From Spirochaetales bacterium (GTDB lineage: Bacteria; Spirochaetota; Spirochaetia; DSM-2461): a stretch of DNA of 32,011 nucleotides. The stretch is taken from assembly GCA_028532905.1 (NCBI GenBank), contig JAQQAM010000144.1:1-32011 (forward strand), in the 5' to 3' direction. The translations under genes were made by a program, and so were the position numbers. Under the pieces are notes generated by a model, which did no database searches, was not told where the DNA came from, and saw nothing but the letters and a program-made list of their open reading frames with translations. This document shows, in pieces, positions 59 through 32,011 of this stretch. How positions within the stretch are numbered: the first letter of the stretch is position 1; every line of letters begins with the position of its first letter.

Positions 59-1483
59 ATGGAGAAGCAGAATAACGATGCCGTTGAATCCATGATTCAG
101 GAACTGGTAGAGAAAGCCAGAACCGCCCAACAGCAGGTTGCCGGATACAGCCAGCAGCAGATTGATGATGTGTGCATGGCAATCGGCTGGGAAGTATATA
201 AGGATGACAATATAAAGATTCTTGCCGAAATGGCTGTAGAAGAGACAGGCATGGGTAATGTGGAAGATAAAATAAAGAAACATAAAGGTAAGATTCTGGG
301 AGTCATGGCCGATGTCAAAGGCGCCTTGTCCGTGGGACTGATCGAAAGAGACGAAAAGCGGGGCATCAGCAAATATGCCAAGCCCGTAGGTGTTGTGGGA
401 GCCCTGACTCCTGTTACCAATCCGACTGCCACCCCCGGTTCCAATGCCGTGACCATCCTCAAGGGCCGGAATGCCGTCATCTTCGCCCCCCACCCCCGTT
501 CCAGAGCCGCATCAGCCAAAGCGGTTGAGTTTATGAGACAGGGACTTAAAAAGGTCGGTGCTCCCGAAGATCTGATCCAGATCATTGCAGAGCCCTCCAT
601 ACCCGCCACGGGAGAGCTGATGAAACAGGTGGATCTGGTTCTGGCCACAGGCGGCGGCGCCATGGTCAAAGCAGCCTATTCCAGCGGCACACCGGCCTAC
701 GGTGTAGGCCCGGGCAACTCTGTGCAGATTATAGCCGAAGATGCGGATATAGAAGATGCCATGGGAAAAGTAGCCTTAAGCAAATGCTTCGACCATGCCA
801 CCTCCTGCTCCTCTGAAAACAGCATTATTGTACACGAAAGTCTTTACGACAGGGCCTTGGAGCTTCTGGGTTCTGTGGAAGGAGGATACATATGCCGGGG
901 AGAAGAAAGGGAAACATTGAAGAACTGGATGTGGATTCCCAATAAAAAAGGCCATGTGGCTCTGAATCCCGGGATTGTTGCCAAATCGGCACAGCACATA
1001 GCAGAGCATGCGGGACTGACCATCCCTCAGGACAAGAGAATGCTGGTAGTGGAAGGGGAAATGCCCCTGGAAGAAGACCGCTTTGCAGAAGAAAAGCTCT
1101 CCCCGGTTCTGACGGTGTGGAAATATTCCGACTTTTCTGAAGGATATGAGATACTGAAACGGCTGACCGACAACTGCGGCACAGGCCACTCCTGCGGCAT
1201 CCATACAGCCAACAGGGACTATGTGGAGTTTCTGGGAGAGAACATGAAATCCAGCCGGATTATGGTCAACCAGCCCCAGGCGCCTGCAAACGGCGGCAAC
1301 TTTTTTAATGGCATGCCCTCTACAGTCACCCTGGGTTGCGGAACATGGGGGGGCAATATTACCACTGAAAACATCTATTACAAACACTTTCTGAATATCA
1401 CCTGGGTTTCCGATCTCCTTCCTGTGAACAAACCGGAGGATGAAGAGTTCTTCGCCGAGTTCTGGCAGAAGTACGGTAAGTAG
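59..1483 (+). CDS. sauS: CoA-acylating aldehyde dehydrogenase, sulfoacetaldehyde dehydrogenase (SauS/SqwD) type
   Basis: This 474-residue protein has the aldehyde dehydrogenase fold of the CoA-acylating group (N-terminal domain of AdhE, EutE, SauS). The cofactor loop PVTNPT is at 119-124 and the catalytic cysteine is C250 in the context ATSCSSEN, which I recognise from acylating sulfoacetaldehyde dehydrogenases. The family converts an aldehyde, CoA and NAD(P)+ to acyl-CoA and NAD(P)H, reversibly, in the cytoplasm. No alcohol dehydrogenase domain follows, so it is not AdhE. An AGGAAGGAAAG ribosome site lies just before the ATG. It is followed after 9 bases by two CoA-ligase subunits and then an anion transporter, which fits an aldehyde / acyl-CoA / free acid route yielding ATP. 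Other short aldehydes cannot be excluded from sequence alone. The operon may begin upstream of the window, since only 58 bases precede the gene. Confidence 0.8.
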   Translation: MEKQNNDAVESMIQELVEKARTAQQQVAGYSQQQIDDVCMAIGWEVYKDDNIKILAEMAVEETGMGNVEDKIKKHKGKILGVMADVKGALSVGLIERDEKRGISKYAKPVGVVGALTPVTNPTATPGSNAVTILKGRNAVIFAPHPRSRAASAKAVEFMRQGLKKVGAPEDLIQIIAEPSIPATGELMKQVDLVLATGGGAMVKAAYSSGTPAYGVGPGNSVQIIAEDADIEDAMGKVALSKCFDHATSCSSENSIIVHESLYDRALELLGSVEGGYICRGEERETLKNWMWIPNKKGHVALNPGIVAKSAQHIAEHAGLTIPQDKRMLVVEGEMPLEEDRFAEEKLSPVLTVWKYSDFSEGYEILKRLTDNCGTGHSCGIHTANRDYVEFLGENMKSSRIMVNQPQAPANGGNFFNGMPSTVTLGCGTWGGNITTENIYYKHFLNITWVSDLLPVNKPEDEEFFAEFWQKYGK

Positions 1484-1492
1484 GAGGCTTGT

Positions 1493-2620
1493 ATGAAGTT
1501 ATTCGAGTACCAGGCGAAAGAAGTCTTTGCCCGATACGGTCTGACTGTCCCCCCCTCTCTCACAGCCCTGACGGCGTCTGAAGCAGAACAGGCGGCCAAA
1601 GATCTGGAATGTCCTGTGGTTCTTAAATCTCAGGTCCTCAGGGGAGGACGGGGAAAGGCCGGTCTGATCCAGCTGGTCAGCTCTCCCGAAGAAGCCGGAC
1701 AAAAAGCACAGGAGCTCTTTGACAGTCCCCACGGCGTCAGACGCCTTCTGGTGGAAAAAGCAGTTGATATTGATCAGGAAATTTATATTTCTGTCACCAT
1801 CGATGCCGAAAAGGCAGAGGCCATGTTCATGCTCAGCATCGAAGGGGGTGTGGAAATAGAAACTCTGGCTGCAGAATCCCCGGAAAAGATTCACTTTGAA
1901 TATGCGGATATCACCAGAGGTCTTCTCCCCTTTCAGGCCAGAGACCTGATCTACAGAGCCGGTGTGGAGGGAGATCTTGCTAAAAAGCTGATCCCCGTGG
2001 TCATAAAGCTCTTCAGTATTTTCAAAGACTACGATGCGGAACTGGTTGAGATAAATCCCCTGTTCCTGACAAAACAGGGAGAGCTGATCGCCGGTGACGG
2101 CAAGATCATGATTGATGACAACTCTGCCCACCGCCAGGAAGAGTACAGCATTACAAGAGAGCATTTTGATTCGGATATGGATTTTGAAGCGGCTCAGGAC
2201 GGGATACCCTATCTTCAGTTTGACGGAGAAATCAGTCTGATGTGCGCCGGAGCCGGTCTTACAACAACTGTCTACGATCTGATTAATTATGAAGGCGGTA
2301 CGGTGGCCAATTATCTGGAGTTCGGCGGTCCCAACTACAAAAGAGCCAAAAGGGCTATGGAGCTCTGCCTGCGCAACAGGACGGCAAAGGTTCTTCTGGT
2401 TGTAACCTTCGGAACCATTGCCAGAGCCGATGTTATGGCAGAGGGCATTGTCAGCGCCATGCAGGAACTGAAGCCGGAGATTCCCATTGTCACCTGTATA
2501 AGAGGAACCAATGAAGAAGCCGCTCACAAGACACTGGCCGCAGCGGGTCTGGACCCCCTGACGGACACAGAAGAGGCGGTCCGGAAAGCCGTCAGTCTTT
2601 GCAGGGGAGAAAGCAGATGA
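1493..2620 (+). CDS. ADP-forming acyl-CoA ligase, beta (SucC-like) subunit
   Basis: The 375-residue protein follows succinyl-CoA synthetase beta from end to end: an ATP-grasp N-terminal domain (residues 1 to about 235, with VLKSQVLRGGRGKAG near 42-56 and VEINPLFL near 183) and a C-terminal CoA-ligase domain starting near GAGLTTTVYDLI. The usual DGKLGADDNA stretch reads DGKIMIDDNS, and the GGG turn of the ligase domain reads FGGPNYKRA, so it is not a housekeeping SucC. The likely role is nucleotide binding in a two-subunit ligase that interconverts an acyl-CoA, ADP and phosphate with the acid, ATP and CoA. With the upstream dehydrogenase, the best guess is sulfoacetate-CoA ligase (SauC/SqwK type). 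The ribosome site TAGGAGG precedes the ATG, and the alpha-subunit start overlaps the stop. Confidence 0.82.
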   Translation: MKLFEYQAKEVFARYGLTVPPSLTALTASEAEQAAKDLECPVVLKSQVLRGGRGKAGLIQLVSSPEEAGQKAQELFDSPHGVRRLLVEKAVDIDQEIYISVTIDAEKAEAMFMLSIEGGVEIETLAAESPEKIHFEYADITRGLLPFQARDLIYRAGVEGDLAKKLIPVVIKLFSIFKDYDAELVEINPLFLTKQGELIAGDGKIMIDDNSAHRQEEYSITREHFDSDMDFEAAQDGIPYLQFDGEISLMCAGAGLTTTVYDLINYEGGTVANYLEFGGPNYKRAKRAMELCLRNRTAKVLLVVTFGTIARADVMAEGIVSAMQELKPEIPIVTCIRGTNEEAAHKTLAAAGLDPLTDTEEAVRKAVSLCRGESR

Positions 2621-3510
2621 GTATTTTCATAAATAAAGACACAAAAGTGCTGATCCAGGGCATTACCGGGAAGGAAGGCAGCTACTGGACAAAGCATATG
2701 AAGGAGATGGGAACCCGTATTACCTGCGGTGTCACACCCGGAAAAAAAGGACAGCAGGTGGAAGGTATCCCTGTCTACAACTCCGTCAGAGAGGCTGCGG
2801 CTGAACACGAAGTGGAAGCCAGCATGCTCTTTGTCCCTCCCCGGTTTACAAAAGATGCTGTTTTCGAGGCCCTGGATGCGGGGATCAAAAAGATTGTCAC
2901 CATAGCTGACGGCATTCCCCTTCATGAAACCATGGAAATCCGGAAAGCCGCCCGGCAGGCAGACGCTCTGGTGATCGGGGGAAATACCTCCGGTGTCATC
3001 TCACCGGGAAAAGCCATGATGGGTTTTTTCCCCTACTGGATTGAACGGGTTTATAAGGAAGGCCGGATCGGTGTGATGACCAGAAGCGGCTCTCTGACAA
3101 ATGAAGTAACCGCCATGGTTGTCCGCGCCGGATACGGCGTGTCCACACTGGTGGGAGTGGGAGGAGATCCTGTTCCCGGAACCCGCTTTGCCGAACTGCT
3201 GCCTGCCTATCAGGATGACCCTGAAACCGATGCCGTTGTCATCATCGGAGAACTGGGAGGCACCATGGAGGAAGAGGTGGCGGATGCCATGAACAAAGGT
3301 CTGTTCACCAAACCTCTGGTAGCCTTCCTGGGAGGGCGCACGGCACCCAAAGGAAAGAGAATGGGTCATGCCGGAGCCATAGCCACCGGGGGAAAAGGAA
3401 CCGTGGAAGGTAAGGTCGCCGCCCTGGAGGCGGCGGGTGCTCTGGTTGCCCAACGCCCCCGTCTGGTGGGTGATCTGCTGAAACAGGCTTTGACAGAGGA
3501 AGGGAGATAA
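2617..3510 (+). CDS. ADP-forming acyl-CoA ligase, alpha (SucD-like) subunit
   Basis: The 297-residue protein is the alpha partner, with an N-terminal CoA-binding Rossmann domain (GITGKEGS at 15-22) and a C-terminal ligase domain carrying the phospho-accepting histidine H251 in MGHAGAI. I place the start at 2617, where ATG overlaps the beta-subunit TGA as ATGA and a GGGGAGA ribosome site precedes it. The longer version from 2599 would add six residues inside the upstream gene. The segment that reads GPNCPG in SucD is GGNTSG here (121-126), suggesting a different carboxylate substrate. Its role is CoA binding and phosphoryl transfer in the two-subunit ligase. A sulfoacetate substrate is inferred from the neighbouring dehydrogenase, not shown. 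Confidence 0.82.
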   Translation: MSIFINKDTKVLIQGITGKEGSYWTKHMKEMGTRITCGVTPGKKGQQVEGIPVYNSVREAAAEHEVEASMLFVPPRFTKDAVFEALDAGIKKIVTIADGIPLHETMEIRKAARQADALVIGGNTSGVISPGKAMMGFFPYWIERVYKEGRIGVMTRSGSLTNEVTAMVVRAGYGVSTLVGVGGDPVPGTRFAELLPAYQDDPETDAVVIIGELGGTMEEEVADAMNKGLFTKPLVAFLGGRTAPKGKRMGHAGAIATGGKGTVEGKVAALEAAGALVAQRPRLVGDLLKQALTEEGR

Positions 3511-3511
3511 T

Positions 3512-4960
3512 ATGTCCAGAGAAAACCGGAAAAAACTCTTTTACCTCTCCCTGGGGTTTGTTGTGATGATGCTTATGATGGCCCTCCCCCTGCCGGAGTC
3601 CATCAGGGATGCGGGCAAAGGGTATCTGTCTCTTCAGGGACAGATATCCATGGGAATACTGCTGTTCTGTCTGATCATGTGGATGACCGAAGCCCTGCCC
3701 TTTCATATTACAGGTATGCTGGGAGTGGTTCTTCTGTCTGTGTTCAATGTGGACAGCTTCAAGAACATTGTCAGGGCGGGATTCGGAAATCATATTATAA
3801 CCTTCTTTATCGGGGTTCTGATCCTCTCGGCTTTTATAACTAAATCAGGACTGGGAAAGAGAATCAGTGTTTTCCTCCTGTCTAGAACCGGCAACAACAC
3901 CGGCCTGATTATAGCCGGCTTTATGCTTGTGGGAGCCCTTCTGTCCATGTGGATTACCAATATGGCGGTGGCGGCCATGCTCCTGCCCCTGGGAGTGTCC
4001 ATCCTTGAGGAAGAGGGCTGTGAAAGGCAGAAAAGCAACTTCGGTAAAGCCCTGATGATCGCCTGTGTCTGGGGTCCTCTTATCGGCGGAATCGGAACTC
4101 CCGCAGGAGCCGGCCCCAATCCCATAGCCATTGGATTTCTGAAGGAGATGGCCGGTGTGGATCTGAGTTTTACCATGTGGATGCTCTACGGTGTACCTGC
4201 TGTGATTCTTCTTCTCCCCATCGGATGGGCACTGCTGATGATCATATTCAAACCTGAGGTGAAGCATCTGAAAAAAACAAGAGAAGAGCTGAGGCATGAA
4301 TTTGACAACTACCCCCCCATGGACCGTGAGGAGAAACTGACTCTTGTCATTTTTATCCTGACAGTGGTTCTCTGGCTGAGTTCGGGCTTTCTGGGTCGGG
4401 TTCTGGGAATATCCATTCCCGTCTCCATGCCTGTTCTGTTCACGGCGACCCTCTTCTTTTTTCCGGGAGTCTCGGGACTGAAATGGAAGGAGATCGAAGA
4501 GGATATTTCCTGGAGCGGCATCATACTGGTTGTCTCCGGTATATCCATCGGCATGATGCTCTATGAATCCGGAGCCGCCGGCTGGCTGAGCTTTGTTCTT
4601 CTGGGGGGCATCGGCAGCTTCTCTCCCCTCCTCCGGGTAGGAGCCATAGTGCTGATTGTCATGATCCTGAAAGTGGCATTATCAAGTAACTCTGTTACCG
4701 CCACAATCGTGATTCCCATAATGATTGCCCTGGCGGAAAATCTGGGTCTCGATGCTCTGTCCATTGCCCTTCCGGCATCAATTACAGCCTCACTGGCCTT
4801 TATTCTGGTAACATCCAGTCCCACAAACGTAATCCCCTACGCTGCCGGCTTTTTCTCGATCAGAGATTTTGCCCGGTCCGGCCTGGTCATGACTCTGTTT
4901 ACCACTGTCATTGTCTCACTGGTAATCTTTGCGGTAGGCAACATTCAGGGCTTATATTAA
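3512..4960 (+). CDS. DASS/SLC13-family anion transporter
   Basis: The 482-residue membrane protein has many hydrophobic segments spread over its full length. It carries the two paired substrate and sodium motifs of the divalent-anion:sodium symporter family: one near 147-155 (WITNMAVAA, in place of the usual SNT) and one near 389-395 (SSNSVTA), plus a late SPTNVIPYAAG. Family members carry dicarboxylates, sulfate or other small anions. It starts one base after the SucD-like stop, so it is translationally coupled to the ligase. In this operon it probably moves the acid made or used by the ligase; sulfoacetate is the leading candidate. Direction cannot be read from sequence. It is the last gene of the operon, and no clear plus-strand terminator follows. 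Confidence 0.85.
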   Translation: MSRENRKKLFYLSLGFVVMMLMMALPLPESIRDAGKGYLSLQGQISMGILLFCLIMWMTEALPFHITGMLGVVLLSVFNVDSFKNIVRAGFGNHIITFFIGVLILSAFITKSGLGKRISVFLLSRTGNNTGLIIAGFMLVGALLSMWITNMAVAAMLLPLGVSILEEEGCERQKSNFGKALMIACVWGPLIGGIGTPAGAGPNPIAIGFLKEMAGVDLSFTMWMLYGVPAVILLLPIGWALLMIIFKPEVKHLKKTREELRHEFDNYPPMDREEKLTLVIFILTVVLWLSSGFLGRVLGISIPVSMPVLFTATLFFFPGVSGLKWKEIEEDISWSGIILVVSGISIGMMLYESGAAGWLSFVLLGGIGSFSPLLRVGAIVLIVMILKVALSSNSVTATIVIPIMIALAENLGLDALSIALPASITASLAFILVTSSPTNVIPYAAGFFSIRDFARSGLVMTLFTTVIVSLVIFAVGNIQGLY

Positions 4961-5046: not shown

Positions 5047-5239
5047 ACCAGGCAGGGCCGACAGACTTATCAGAAGAGCACCCCTAACTACATTTTCGTA
5101 GGTCGTCATTATTTTTTATACTTTAATGTAACTTTTTTATGCATCTTTGTATTTCCAAATAATCAAAACACTTTCCTCTCCCATTCTATTTCCTTTCTAA
5201 TAAAACACTTAACTATTTTTTAATCATTTCTTACCAGAA

Positions 5240-5255
5240 TGGCACAGAACCTGCA
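5240..5255 (+). promoter_or_regulatory. sigma-54 (-24/-12) promoter of glnN
   Basis: The site reads TGGCAC-N5-CTGCA, matching the sigma-54 consensus TGGCAC-N5-TTGCA at all but one base, with exact GG-to-GC spacing. Transcription would start near 5266, about 95 bases before the gene. Sigma-54 control with NtrC-type activators is the classical mode for glutamine synthetase genes, so position and target agree. I found no clear activator-binding palindrome in the AT-rich stretch upstream. Confidence 0.78.
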
Positions 5256-5361
5256 TATAAGGTAAACAAATAATGAATCCCATATTATATGGAAACCCTG
5301 CGGCCCGTGAACTGATTCGGGCATAGTATTTAAATAACTATAGGGAATTAGGAGAAGAATG

Positions 5362-7485
5362 ATGAGCGTTGATTATTCAGAAACACCCCTGGTAAGCATT
5401 TACGGGGAGAACTGCTTCAGTGAAGCGGTAATGAAAGAAAGACTGCCCAAAAGCGTCTTTAAAGAGTTTAAAAAAGTACAGGTGGGAGAGTGTGAACTGT
5501 CTCTTGATGTTGCCGAAGTAATTGCTTCTGCCATGAAAGACTGGGCCATTGAAAAAGGCGCCACCCACTATACTCACTGGTTCCAGCCCCTTACCGGTCT
5601 TACCGCTGAAAAGCACGATGCTTTCATCTCTCCCGAAAGCGATGGAACAATCCTTATGGAGTTCTCCGGAAAAGAACTCATCCAGGGTGAGCCTGATGCC
5701 TCTTCCTTCCCCAACGGCGGATTAAGAGCGACTTTCGAAGCCCGTGGATATACAGCCTGGGATACATCATCCCCTGCATTCCTGAAACAGGACAACACCG
5801 GTCTCACACTGACCATTCCCACAGCCTTTGTTTCCTACACCGGAGAGGCTCTGGATAAAAAGACTCCCCTCCTCCGTTCAACTGATGCCATCAGCAAACA
5901 GGCCATGAGAATTCTCAAGGTAATGGGTAACACCAGCTCCAAGAGAGTCACCTGTTCTGTAGGTCCCGAGCAGGAGTACTTCCTGGTAGACAAGGATTAC
6001 TTTCTGGCCAGACCCGACCTGAAACTCACCGGAAGAACCGTTTTCGGAACCATGAGTGCCAAGGGACAGGAACTGGATGACCACTACTTCGGTGCCATCA
6101 AGGACAGAGTTGCCGATTTCATGAGAGATCTGAACACTGAGCTCTGGAAACTGGGAATCTCCGCCAAAACACAGCACAACGAAGTAGCCCCCAACCAGTT
6201 TGAAATGGCTCCCGTTTATGCCAACGCTTCAGTGGCCACAGACGGAAACCAGCTCACCATGGAAATGATGAAAAAAGTAGCCGACAAGCATGACCTGGCC
6301 TGTCTGCTCCATGAAAAACCCTTTGCCGGAGTAAACGGTAACGGTAAACACAACAACTGGTCCATCTGTACTGATGACGGCATCAACCTGCTGAACCCCG
6401 GAGACACTCCCCATGACAATGCGCAGTTCCTCCTGTTCTGTGTTGCCACCATCAAGGCTGTTGATGTATACGCTCCTCTTCTGAGAGCCTCTGCCGCCAG
6501 CTCCGGAAATGACCACAGACTGGGAGCCAACGAAGCTCCTCCTGCCATCATCTCCATCTTCCTGGGAGATCAGCTCTCTGATATCCTGGAAAAAATGGCT
6601 GCCGGCAAACCCGTAGAAGCTCTTGACGGCAAACTCATGGAAATTGGTGCCACATCACTGCCCAAGCTTCCCATGGACATGACCGACAGAAACAGAACAT
6701 CACCCTTTGCCTTCACCGGTAACAAGTTTGAGTTCAGAATGGTTGGTTCTTCCCAGTCCATCGCCGGACCCAATGTTGTTCTCAACACTGCTGTAGCGGC
6801 AATCCTGGACGAGTTCGCCACAAGACTGGAAAAAGCCTCTGATGTGAACGCTGAAATCCAGAAGATTATTGTTGAAACATACGGTGCTCATGAGAAAATC
6901 GTTTTCAACGGAAACGGATACTCTGACGACTGGGTCGTTGAAGCCGAGAAACGGGGACTTCCCAACCTGAAATCCACCGTTGCCGCCCTGCCTGTTTACA
7001 ACAGCGCACAGAGTGTGGAACTCTTCAGTAAATACGATGTTCTTTCCAAAGAAGAGCTGGAATCCAGAGTGGATATCTACCTTGAGAACTACAGCAAGCA
7101 GATCAACATCGAAGCCGGAGTGGCCCTTGAAATGGCTACACGCCTGATCTTCCCTGTTGTCAGTGCTTATGCTACATCTGTAGCTGACGGCATCACCTCC
7201 ATCAAGTCAGTTCTGCCCAAAGCAGATACAGCAGCACAGGAAGCCCTCCTTGCCGCTCTGGGTGAAAAAATGGAATGTCTGCTTAAAGTCAGCACTGTTC
7301 TGGGTAAAGAAATTGATGCAGCCCTTGAACTGGAAGAAGATCTTATGGCCCAGGCAACGGCCTACAGAGAAAAGGTTATTCCTGCCATGGACGACTTGAG
7401 AGAGTGTGCCGATGCCCTTGAAAAAATGACAGACAAGGACGCATGGCCCTATCCTTCCTACGAAGACATGCTGTTTAACCTGTAA
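5362..7485 (+). CDS. glnN: glutamine synthetase type III
   Basis: The product is about 707 residues, the size of GSIII rather than the roughly 450 of GSI. Diagnostic stretches include FGTMSAKGQELDDHYFG, KTQHNEVAPNQFEMAPVY, HEKPFAGVNGNGKHNNWS, the ATP-site region GNDHRLGANEAPPAIIS, and FAFTGNKFEFRMVGSSQS. The enzyme makes glutamine from glutamate, ammonia and ATP in the cytoplasm. Two ATGs are adjacent (5359 and 5362); GGAG at 5351-5354 is 4 and 7 bases away, so I prefer 5362. Transcription is probably from the sigma-54 promoter at 5240-5255, implying nitrogen control. It stands alone and ends in a strong terminator. Codon choice looks strongly biased by eye (CTG, GTT, AAC), as in nifJ, suggesting high expression. 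Confidence 0.96.
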   Translation: MSVDYSETPLVSIYGENCFSEAVMKERLPKSVFKEFKKVQVGECELSLDVAEVIASAMKDWAIEKGATHYTHWFQPLTGLTAEKHDAFISPESDGTILMEFSGKELIQGEPDASSFPNGGLRATFEARGYTAWDTSSPAFLKQDNTGLTLTIPTAFVSYTGEALDKKTPLLRSTDAISKQAMRILKVMGNTSSKRVTCSVGPEQEYFLVDKDYFLARPDLKLTGRTVFGTMSAKGQELDDHYFGAIKDRVADFMRDLNTELWKLGISAKTQHNEVAPNQFEMAPVYANASVATDGNQLTMEMMKKVADKHDLACLLHEKPFAGVNGNGKHNNWSICTDDGINLLNPGDTPHDNAQFLLFCVATIKAVDVYAPLLRASAASSGNDHRLGANEAPPAIISIFLGDQLSDILEKMAAGKPVEALDGKLMEIGATSLPKLPMDMTDRNRTSPFAFTGNKFEFRMVGSSQSIAGPNVVLNTAVAAILDEFATRLEKASDVNAEIQKIIVETYGAHEKIVFNGNGYSDDWVVEAEKRGLPNLKSTVAALPVYNSAQSVELFSKYDVLSKEELESRVDIYLENYSKQINIEAGVALEMATRLIFPVVSAYATSVADGITSIKSVLPKADTAAQEALLAALGEKMECLLKVSTVLGKEIDAALELEEDLMAQATAYREKVIPAMDDLRECADALEKMTDKDAWPYPSYEDMLFNL

Positions 7486-9534: not shown

Positions 9535-9810
9535 ATGAACAAGCAGGAACTTGTCAGAGAGCTTTCTCAGACACTGGACATCTCTCAGAAAACAGTGCGT
9601 CACACCCTTGATGCTCTGCTGGAAGAGGTCGTTCAGGTACTGGAAGAGGGTGAAAATTATACTCAAACCGGATTCGGAACATTCAGGACTGAAGTCTCAC
9701 AGGAACGGATAAGTTACAATCCGTCGCTCAAAAGAAGAATGCTTCTTCCCAAAAAAAGAAAGGTGAAATTCAGACCCTCTGCCAAATTAAAGGGAAGAAT
9801 CAATGAGTAG
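9535..9810 (+). CDS. HU/IHF-family DNA-binding protein
   Basis: The 91-residue protein has the length and plan of HU: an N-terminal helical dimer region (MNKQELVRELSQTLDISQKTV), the turn GFGTF at 47-51, a beta-arm region and a C-terminal basic stretch ending SAKLKGRINE. The arm is atypical. The usual RNPxTG tip is replaced by ISYNPSLKRRMLLPKKRKVKF, keeping one NP but not the TG. It binds and bends DNA as a dimer and is probably a nucleoid protein, though it may pair with the next gene product. It is the first gene of a two-gene operon; the next ATG overlaps its last codons by 8 bases. Confidence 0.85.
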   Translation: MNKQELVRELSQTLDISQKTVRHTLDALLEEVVQVLEEGENYTQTGFGTFRTEVSQERISYNPSLKRRMLLPKKRKVKFRPSAKLKGRINE

Positions 9811-11107
9811 ATTTCTGACCCCATCAAAAATGGCAGAGAGACTCGAGGACAAGGTGGAACTGGACCGGGAAATGACCGGAAGATTCACCAATGAACTGTT
9901 TGAAATCATTATCAGGGAACTTAAAAAAGAGGAAACATTCTCTCTCTTCGGATTCGGAAGTTTCAAAAAGGTGTACGTGGCTCCTGCCAAGGGACGGAAT
10001 CCACATACCGGAGAAGCCATCTACGTACCCGCCCACTATAGAATCAAATTCACAGCTGCCGGAAAACTGGCCGAAAGAATCAATGCCGAATACGCACACC
10101 TCAAACCGGTGCTTCTGGATGAAGAAGTCATCCATGAAGGGCTGCTGCTGAAAGCGGAGCGTTATATAATGACTGCCGCCGCCGAGCCTGAGCCGGAAGG
10201 GGCAGAGCAGGAAGATCCCACCGTTCCCATTATAGAAATGAACACAGCCCCTGAGGAAGGACAAACTCAGGATACATCCGCCCAGGAAGCACCTGCTGAA
10301 GAATCAGAAGCCCCGGCAGTCTCTGTAGTCGAGGAAACTTTTATACCGGAACCATCAGCAGAGGATACTACCAAAGAGGAAACAGACTCCCGGGAGCCGA
10401 TAGAAGAGCATCATGTTCCTGATTTCGGCTTTAAAAAGGACAATAGAAACAGAGTTGTAAAACTGACCCTCCTGACTCTCCTGGCCCTTCTGATCGTATT
10501 GGGACTGGGATGGCTTATATTCCGGAATATAGGAACCCCTTCCGGAACTGAAATTATTGTCACCGAAGAGAAAGCTCCGGCTCCTTCCGAAACCGCTGAA
10601 CCTGAATCCACGGCACCTGAACCGGAGTCACTGCAGGGGTCTGAAACGGCCGAAGAGAGCCCTGAACCTGTACAGGAATCAGCGACAACGGCGGAAGCAG
10701 TTCCTGCAGGACCGGAAACGAACTACTCCATAAGTCCCGGAGATTCCTTCAGTCTTCTGGCTCAGGAGAGCTGGGGAAATATCTATCTCTGGCCCTATCT
10801 GTACAGCAGGAACAGCAGTTCCTTTCCCGACCCGGATCTTGTCCGCCCGGGAGATGAAATTGTGATTCCTCCCCAGCCGGATCAGACCAGAGACCAGATA
10901 CGAATTGAGGACAGTATACTCTTCGCCTATCAGCGGTACAGAACTCTGATAGCCGAACAGAGCGACAACCCCCGGAACCCGAGAAGGACTCTCAGTGCGG
11001 GCTATGTTCTCCTGGGCGGAGAAAGAATGTATCCCAGCTTCCTGGAACGCAGGCAGTCTGAGATCAGAATTGAAGATATCAGAAGAGTCGAAGACCTGAA
11101 CCGCTGA
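9803..11107 (+). CDS. HU-domain / transmembrane / LysM-like fusion protein
   Basis: The 434-residue protein has three clear parts. Residues 1-95 are a full HU domain with GFGSF at 50-54 and the intercalating-arm motif GRNPHTG at 64-70. Residues about 125-215 are an acidic, Pro/Ala/Glu-rich linker. Residues 218-240 form one strong membrane helix (VVKLTLLTLLALLIVLGLGW), followed by a second Glu/Pro/Ala linker to about 302. Residues about 306-357 look like a LysM domain (YSISPGDSFSLLAQESWG, then LVRPGDEIVIP). With the HU part inside the cell, the LysM part would be in the periplasm, where LysM binds peptidoglycan. This suggests a nucleoid-to-envelope link. Its start overlaps the upstream HU gene, so the two are coupled and may form heterodimers. 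Confidence 0.88.
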   Translation: MSRFLTPSKMAERLEDKVELDREMTGRFTNELFEIIIRELKKEETFSLFGFGSFKKVYVAPAKGRNPHTGEAIYVPAHYRIKFTAAGKLAERINAEYAHLKPVLLDEEVIHEGLLLKAERYIMTAAAEPEPEGAEQEDPTVPIIEMNTAPEEGQTQDTSAQEAPAEESEAPAVSVVEETFIPEPSAEDTTKEETDSREPIEEHHVPDFGFKKDNRNRVVKLTLLTLLALLIVLGLGWLIFRNIGTPSGTEIIVTEEKAPAPSETAEPESTAPEPESLQGSETAEESPEPVQESATTAEAVPAGPETNYSISPGDSFSLLAQESWGNIYLWPYLYSRNSSSFPDPDLVRPGDEIVIPPQPDQTRDQIRIEDSILFAYQRYRTLIAEQSDNPRNPRRTLSAGYVLLGGERMYPSFLERRQSEIRIEDIRRVEDLNR

Positions 11108-31293: not shown

Positions 31294-32011
31294 TCAGTCC
31301 TCCTCCCCTTCAGGCAGGGGCATGGCCGCTGCTTTTTCCTTACTGCCTGCCGAAAATTTGAAATTAGGACTCCAGTGAGCTCCTTTTGCCGGAATCGTTA
31401 TCTCTTCTCCGGTTTTGGGATTTCTTCCAAGACGTGCCTTCCTGCTGGGTTTCAGGGTCAGTGAAAAGCGCCCCAGTCTGCCGAAAGAGACATTCTTGCC
31501 CAGGAGCATTCCTGTTTCCAGCATAGAGACATAGTCGTCTGTGATTTCCCTGATTTTATCCTGGGTCAGACCGCTCTTTTTGGCCAGATAGGCAATAATA
31601 TTCTGTTTATTAAACTGATCGGCTTCCTGACTGTCCAGAGGAAGGGTCAGATCACGGTTTAAATGAATAAAAGAATTGGTCAGAAAGACAGTGGCTTCGT
31701 GGACTCTTTTTTCCTGCTCCCCTGCCGGAACATCTTCCCGGCAGACAACAATTTTATACAGAGCCGATGTATTTTTCAGGGGGCCTGCGCTGAACGCCGC
31801 AGCCCGTCCGTAAGCGGCCGGCGCCCCGAGGGTCGTTTTTTCGCAGCGGACAATATCCGGCACATCAGTTCTGAGAGAAATACTGGCATATTCAAGCCAC
31901 CGCTCTTCACCATACCCCAGAGTGACCAGAGAACCGGAAAAAGTCAGCAGTAACCCCGCCCTGGGATCATCGGCAGACAGCTCTTCCACTTCTTCCATAT
32001 CCAGCAGTTTT
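31294..32011 (-). CDS. HU-fold DNA-binding protein, 5' end outside the window
   Basis: This minus-strand gene is partial: the reading frame stays open to the window edge, and the ATG at 31998 has no ribosome site, so the true start is probably beyond 32011. The visible 238 residues comprise an N-terminal region I do not recognise and a C-terminal HU domain of about 100 residues (IIAYLAKKSGLTQDKIREITDDY, FGRLGRFSLTL, then ARLGRNPKTGEEITIPAKG with the RNPxTG arm). An HU domain after a long N-terminal region is unusual. It is the third HU-fold gene in this window. Confidence 0.82.
   Translation of the reverse strand, partial: KLLDMEEVEELSADDPRAGLLLTFSGSLVTLGYGEERWLEYASISLRTDVPDIVRCEKTTLGAPAAYGRAAAFSAGPLKNTSALYKIVVCREDVPAGEQEKRVHEATVFLTNSFIHLNRDLTLPLDSQEADQFNKQNIIAYLAKKSGLTQDKIREITDDYVSMLETGMLLGKNVSFGRLGRFSLTLKPSRKARLGRNPKTGEEITIPAKGAHWSPNFKFSAGSKEKAAAMPLPEGEED

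Follow-up and report, generated by a model that had tools for sequence, protein, structure and literature searches.

A conserved sigma-54 promoter and paired upstream dyads suggest control of type III glutamine synthetase by a NifA/AnfA-family activator in a Spirochaetales bacterium

The glnN locus and its predicted promoter

The window, meaning the whole stretch of 32,011 nucleotides analysed here, is contig C144 of a Spirochaetales bacterium whose draft genome comprises 4.98 Mb in 296 contigs and is 95% complete. It carries glnN, the gene of a type III glutamine synthetase (GSIII), preceded by an intergenic region of 398 bp. The features of this locus are the following.

5089..5100, no strand: distal dyad TACATTTTCGTA (TAC-N6-GTA), putative activator site; exact, one of a pair
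5119..5130, no strand: proximal dyad TACTTTAATGTA (TAC-N6-GTA), putative activator site; 121 bp upstream of the -24 element
5240..5255, + strand: sigma-54 -24/-12 promoter TGGCAC-AGAAC-CTGCA; one mismatch to the consensus; conserved among glnN-bearing genomes (35/46)
about 5266, + strand: predicted glnN transcript start, 12 bases past the -12 C at 5254 by sigma-54 geometry
5266..5358, + strand: predicted 5' untranslated region, from standard sigma-54 geometry
5350-5354, + strand: ribosome-binding site AGGAG of glnN, read in the sequence
5359..7485, + strand: glnN, GSIII of 708 aa, by its Pfam domains

The glnN product contains GSIII_N (257 bits), Gln-synt_C-ter and Gln-synt_C, all above the Pfam cut-offs, and the loci with names that lie closest to this GSIII are from spirochaetes. 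Ahead of glnN, positions 59-4960 encode an aldehyde dehydrogenase, a SucCD-like CoA ligase pair and a DASS-family anion symporter. The best NCBIfam match of the aldehyde dehydrogenase is the acylating sulfoacetaldehyde dehydrogenase SauS (532 bits against a cut-off of 600), and the cluster may be a sulfoacetate/organosulfonate module. Elsewhere in the window two proteins (9803-11107 and 31294-31998) have an HU/IHF-type DNA-binding domain fused to other sequence; in the former the domain is followed by a likely membrane segment (judged by eye) and a long tail, in the latter the HU domain stands at the C-terminal end.

The element TGGCACAGAACCTGCA at 5240-5255 on the forward strand reads TGGCAC-AGAAC-CTGCA and lies 104 bp 5' of the glnN ATG. 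It has GG at -24 and GC at -12 at the correct spacing and departs from the consensus TGGCAC-N5-TTGCW in a single position. A sequence-only reading of this DNA had proposed a near-consensus sigma-54 promoter here; its exact spacing and single mismatch were confirmed, and the element is conserved at glnN in relatives. Since one match with at most one mismatch was seen in the whole 32 kb and 1.02 are expected, the site alone is weak evidence, and we call it real because its position and conservation decide. When the sequence of the 398-bp intergenic region was shuffled 5000 times, TGGCAY-N6-TGC turned up in 3 of the products.

All findings given here on the sequence elements and how far they are conserved, on the links between genes, on RpoN and on the domains of the candidate activator come from computation. 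For conservation, the glnN upstream regions of 61 genomes, the host genome included, were compared; genomes and loci are cited by our own numbers (G and L). A protein match was obtained in 50 genomes, 46 of which have a real glnN, the matches in G032, G039, G041 and G057 reaching only 24 bits or less. At 33 of 50 glnN upstream loci, some genomes contributing two copies, TGGCAY-N6-TGC stands no more than 180 bp from the start of the match. Dinucleotide shuffles of the same 50 loci gave a mean of 0.06 and a largest value of 1 in 200, and control windows farther upstream gave none in 152. After two further loci had been added, the -24/-12 element is found near glnN in 35 of the 46 glnN-bearing genomes, host included, a count of genomes that are akin and hence not independent events. 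The two boxes are constant across relatives, and the bases between them vary freely. Second glnN copies in G010, G021, G025 and G030 are without the element. In G047 and G048 glnN may need no element of its own, because it lies close behind an amtB-glnB pair that has one. Concerning a wider collection of bacterial genomes, TGGCA-N7-TGC lies within 400 bp of 9 of 80 named glnN loci; 7 of the 12 with spirochaete titles are positive, against 2 of the 68 others.

RpoN, which had likewise been predicted from the promoter, is encoded in the host genome (TIGR02395, 412 bits against a cut-off of 277) and is present in 57 of the 61 genomes compared. Further sigma-54-like sites, for which the same reading had suggested a scan, were also found: TGGCAC-N5-YTGCW occurs 16 times in the host genome against once in the reversed control, and these sixteen sites (L242-L257) include those at glnN, amtB and nifH. 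Several of the others lie near sigma-54 activator genes; one precedes a gene resembling a NifV relative and another an ABC ATPase gene. Taken from the sequence comparison, the assignment of the predicted sigma-54 promoter to glnN is supported.

The glnN leader has a short hairpin-like stretch at about 5300-5330, which looks common to some relatives of the same genus. An RNA element in the leader was dropped as a candidate, there being no Rfam match near the gathering score and a weak alignment.

Paired TAC-N6-GTA dyads upstream of sigma-54 elements

The two dyads before glnN (5089-5100 and 5119-5130), which the sequence-only reading did not mention, measure 12 bp each and lie 30 bp apart; shuffling the intergenic region 5000 times never produced a dyad pair of this kind. 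In three genomes of the same genus (G001, G003, G004) an exact dyad starting with TACT stands at the same -121 position, and a fourth (G002) has TACCGATACGTA there. In an unbiased search, all gapped 3+3 words (gap length 0 to 20) were compared in the stretch that lies between 40 and 250 bp ahead of the -24 box. The glnN promoters were selected by their sigma-54 element and the nifH promoters by nifH together with a sigma-54 element; G020, with only 37 bp of upstream sequence, was left out of the glnN count.

At glnN the top two words were ACA-N4-TGT and then TAC-N6-GTA, which represent the same motif read in two ways. Of the 34 sigma-54 glnN promoters, 32 contain TAC-N6-GTA, against 1.8 expected; G055 and G046 have the sigma-54 element and no exact dyad. 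The same word ranks first at nifH (14 of 16 promoters against 0.8 expected). At amtB it is among the top three (14/16 against 0.8), a count that is partly circular because several amtB loci were fetched for their paired dyad, the set thus being partly chosen by the motif. Among the glnN dyad pairs spaced 25-50 bp, 28 of 51 are 30 or 31 bp apart. Over the 61 genomes the paired pattern is found at 87 places, against 10 for a reversed control. The host genome has it twice, at glnN and at amtB, where amtB is preceded by a sigma-54 element of its own, TGGCACAAGTTCTGCA. Across the phylum, 57 of 296 sampled genomes had the pair, with no excess over the reversed control by eye, so that it is a feature of certain families. 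Helical phasing of the dyads to the -24 element was weak at glnN and not significant at amtB, and we make no claim of it. Judged by sequence, the dyads are putative enhancers to which an AAA+ activator would bind upstream of the promoter.

In two relatives the dyad pair and a sigma-54 element precede other genes. In G003 they stand before an ABC transporter of amino-acid type (the pair also precedes a similar one in G050), and in G050 before another ABC transporter with a solute-binding protein, near nif genes (transporter loci L168 3166-4422, L176 4866-7446 and L175 4654-5717). Since the pair also precedes ABC transporters in relatives, a wider regulon is suggested.

Clade A, its paralogue and other candidate activators

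Judged from domains and gene context, the activator of glnN is likely to be a protein of the NifA/AnfA family, here called clade A, and not one of NtrC type. Clade A proteins (P0001 and P0003 were scanned) consist of a GAF domain, Sigma54_activat and a Fis-type HTH, with no receiver domain, and the two full copies scanned reach 566 and 548 bits against the cut-off of 528.85 of the NCBIfam nifA model (TIGR01817). In many relatives the genes are ordered clade A - amtB - glnB - glnN or amtB - glnB - clade A - glnN; where clade A comes first, dyads and a sigma-54 element precede both amtB and glnN. The host clade A gene is split by the ends of two contigs. On C214 lies the N-terminal portion, preceded by the neighbours that the gene has in relatives, and C167 holds the C-terminal HTH, followed by dyads, a sigma-54 element and amtB; glnN is not adjacent to clade A in this genome. 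Across the 46 genomes clade A is associated with the sigma-54 element at glnN (31/4/5/6 in a table compiled by hand, Fisher p = 0.0065), an association that is significant but modest. Clade A is present with no sigma-54 element at glnN in G035 and G059. Conversely, the element is found with no full clade A match in G046, a single contig, and with no clade A in the drafts G009, G015 and G024.

Moreover, the clade A gene appears to be a target itself. Of 39 clade A sources, 31 could be parsed for this count and 8 could not; 23 of the 31 have a dyad within the 17-bp spacer between the boxes of a sigma-70 promoter belonging to the clade A gene. The register of this composite is TTGnnn, seven bases, the dyad, and a -10 box TAnnnT overlapping the last two letters of the dyad. 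All 23 have the TTG at the -35 place and the T that ends the -10 box, neither of which was required in finding the dyad. For three genomes with two exact dyads the count took the dyad whose promoter scored better, and 23 of the 26 exact dyads listed fit the composite. A regulator bound within the spacer should block the promoter, and self-repression is predicted. The composite is the best link between dyad and clade A, because it holds also where the clade A gene does not lie near glnN.

The host genome further encodes a true nifH (456 bits, above the cut-off), which has a sigma-54 element and a pair of dyads spaced by 40 bp. It also has another NifA-like gene (clade B), which adjoins a gene resembling nifV by eye. 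A tree was built from clade A (33 proteins) and clade B (11 proteins) together with reference NifA-family proteins and other host activators; in it the two clades form sister groups with high support each. A C-x(1-4)-C pair within the first 70 residues is present in 10 of 11 clade B and 0 of 33 clade A proteins; 10 clade A/B rows were unparsed in the cysteine and tree comparison. Because nifH promoters also carry TAC-N6-GTA, clades A and B probably share a half-site. The canonical NifA site TGT-N10-ACA was rejected as the local nifH site, since 2 of the 16 nifH promoters from spirochaetes contain it and 14 of the 16 contain TAC-N6-GTA. A strict 40-bp spacing at nifH was rejected as well: exact pairs at 39-41 bp are found only in G000, G001, G030 and G048, the others being irregular, and G013 and G017 have pairs at 40-41 bp at glnN too.

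The sequence-only reading had predicted an activator of NtrC type, a part of it that was not borne out. No host protein exceeds the cut-off of the ntrC model TIGR01818 (best 427-430 against 558.6 bits), no NtrC orthologue with receiver, AAA+ and HTH was found over the cut-off in the 95% complete draft, and the ten host sigma-54 activator frames that were scanned directly all stayed below it. The genome encodes many sigma-54 activators, and nine of the complete ones scanned match from position 1 of the ntrC model, which means a receiver-type N-terminus. One of these response regulators, which at best reach 427-430 bits for ntrC and 463 for NtrX, might activate the sigma-54 promoter, with the dyads bound by another nitrogen regulator. 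This we consider unlikely: apart from the scores, none was seen adjoining glnN or amtB in the maps made, and the dyads go with the clade A gene itself and equal the known AnfA site. Weak Sigma54_activat matches in four larger or different ATPase frames (L021-L024, E 4e-8 to 5e-4, above the family cut-off) probably do not represent sigma-54 activators; all 14 control genomes also give matches.

The nif-linked clade B (P0002), for its part, would read nearly the same dyads, as their frequency at nifH promoters indicates, and could activate glnN instead of, or along with, clade A. However, genomes with no nifH over the cut-off (for example G004, G005, G027, G028 and G054) still have dyads at glnN together with the sigma-54 element, and it is clade A, not clade B, that adjoins glnN and amtB in the maps; a role of clade B at glnN is therefore very improbable. 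That the -24/-12 match is fortuitous and an ordinary sigma-70 promoter drives glnN is scarcely credible. One such match is indeed expected in the whole window, but conservation in 35 of 46 genomes stands against a shuffle expectation near zero.

Proposed mechanism and comparison with known systems

In our preferred reading, to which we assign a probability of about 0.83, glnN is transcribed from the sigma-54 element at 5240-5255 and switched on by clade A at the dyads within 5089-5130, presumably under nitrogen scarcity, and clade A also serves amtB-glnB and limits its own synthesis. The binding of clade A to the dyads, looping, autorepression and the nitrogen signal are the steps that we infer. 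Nitrogen control of glnN is strongly implied by the architecture that glnN has in common with amtB-glnB and nifH. On nitrogen shortage clade A would become active, the signal possibly arriving via its GAF domain or PII (GlnB). Clade A dimers would bind the two TAC-N6-GTA dyads and then assemble, and the assembled activator would loop to the sigma-54 polymerase at -24/-12, where ATP hydrolysis would open the promoter. The expected output is more GSIII and, at the other clade A promoters, more ammonium channel (amtB) and PII (glnB). On the single dyad in its own sigma-70 spacer, clade A would limit its own synthesis.

A more far-reaching idea, which we put forward tentatively and would rather doubt than favour, concerns the free-living Spirochaetia at large. 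There a duplicated nitrogen-fixation activator, and not NtrBC, might run ammonium assimilation. Clade A, without the cysteine pair, would drive glnN and amtB-glnB via TACA-type dyads 30-31 bp apart and repress itself via the dyad in its own sigma-70 promoter. Clade B, with the cysteine pair, would drive nif via dyads that are often of TACC type and, in several of the genomes, spaced by 39-41 bp. One half-site would thus serve both paralogues, a single base and the spacing making the distinction.

The preferred reading around clade A names a testable nitrogen-starvation regulon for environmental spirochaetes, some of them with nifH, and points to a common nitrogen-starvation switch in many free-living spirochaetes. 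It suggests that a family of nitrogenase activators either originated in general ammonium assimilation or was co-opted for it. It also offers exact sites to mutate, namely the two dyads, the -24/-12 element and the operator buried in the sigma-70 spacer, and predicts a difference in sensing, with the cysteine pair present or absent, between sister activators that would read nearly the same DNA. In the open-licence literature searched, as far as its accessible text goes, no description was found of sigma-54 control of GSIII or of a TAC-N6-GTA dyad in spirochaetes, and the regulator of GSIII there seems undescribed.

Control of glutamine synthetase by sigma-54 with upstream enhancer dyads, as proposed for glnN, is familiar from NtrC at the enteric glnAp2 promoter. 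NtrC differs from clade A in being a response regulator with a receiver domain, its operator is another one, and glnAp2 serves a GSI and not a GSIII.

The NifA proteins of Proteobacteria have the same domain order as clade A, which passes the nifA model TIGR01817 and, among the matches listed, is 38-46% identical to plasmid-borne proteins annotated as NifA. The presumed target of clade A is ammonium assimilation, however, and its predicted site is TAC-N6-GTA, whereas the canonical NifA site is given as TGT-N10-ACA in the accessible part of PMC4999443. Among spirochaetes, amtB of Leptospira interrogans, and the growth of this species when nitrogen is limiting, are under the control of EbpA together with RpoN (PMC12655853, a review). 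In the accessible text of that review EbpA resembles clade A as a GAF-bearing sigma-54 activator with control of amtB; it is described as FhlA-like with two putative GAF domains, and GSIII is not mentioned there.

The regulator VnfA of Azotobacter vinelandii recognises GT(T/A)C-N6-GTAC, according to the part of PMC9542535 at hand, a site that resembles the TAC-N6-GTA core. VnfA differs from clade A as the regulator of vanadium nitrogenase with conserved cysteines in its GAF domain (PMC9542535). AnfA and VnfA alike are marked by a cysteine motif at their GAF domain, as reported in the accessible portions of PMC7294313 and PMC9542535. As a strict AnfA, clade A would fall short in this motif, since the GAF cysteine pair is absent from 33 of 33 sequences, whereas the TAC-N6-GTA site is present at its presumed target. 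AnfA moreover controls Fe-nitrogenase, and not GSIII or amtB, and the available extract of PMC7294313 describes no autorepression by AnfA. According to the same extract, which reports gel shifts and lacZ fusions, the Rhodobacter capsulatus protein AnfA binds TAC-N6-GTA at two sites upstream of the sigma-54 promoter of anfH, and both sites are needed for full activity (PMC7294313). Likewise, glnN has two copies of TAC-N6-GTA upstream of its RpoN site, and its predicted activator is a GAF-AAA+-HTH protein.
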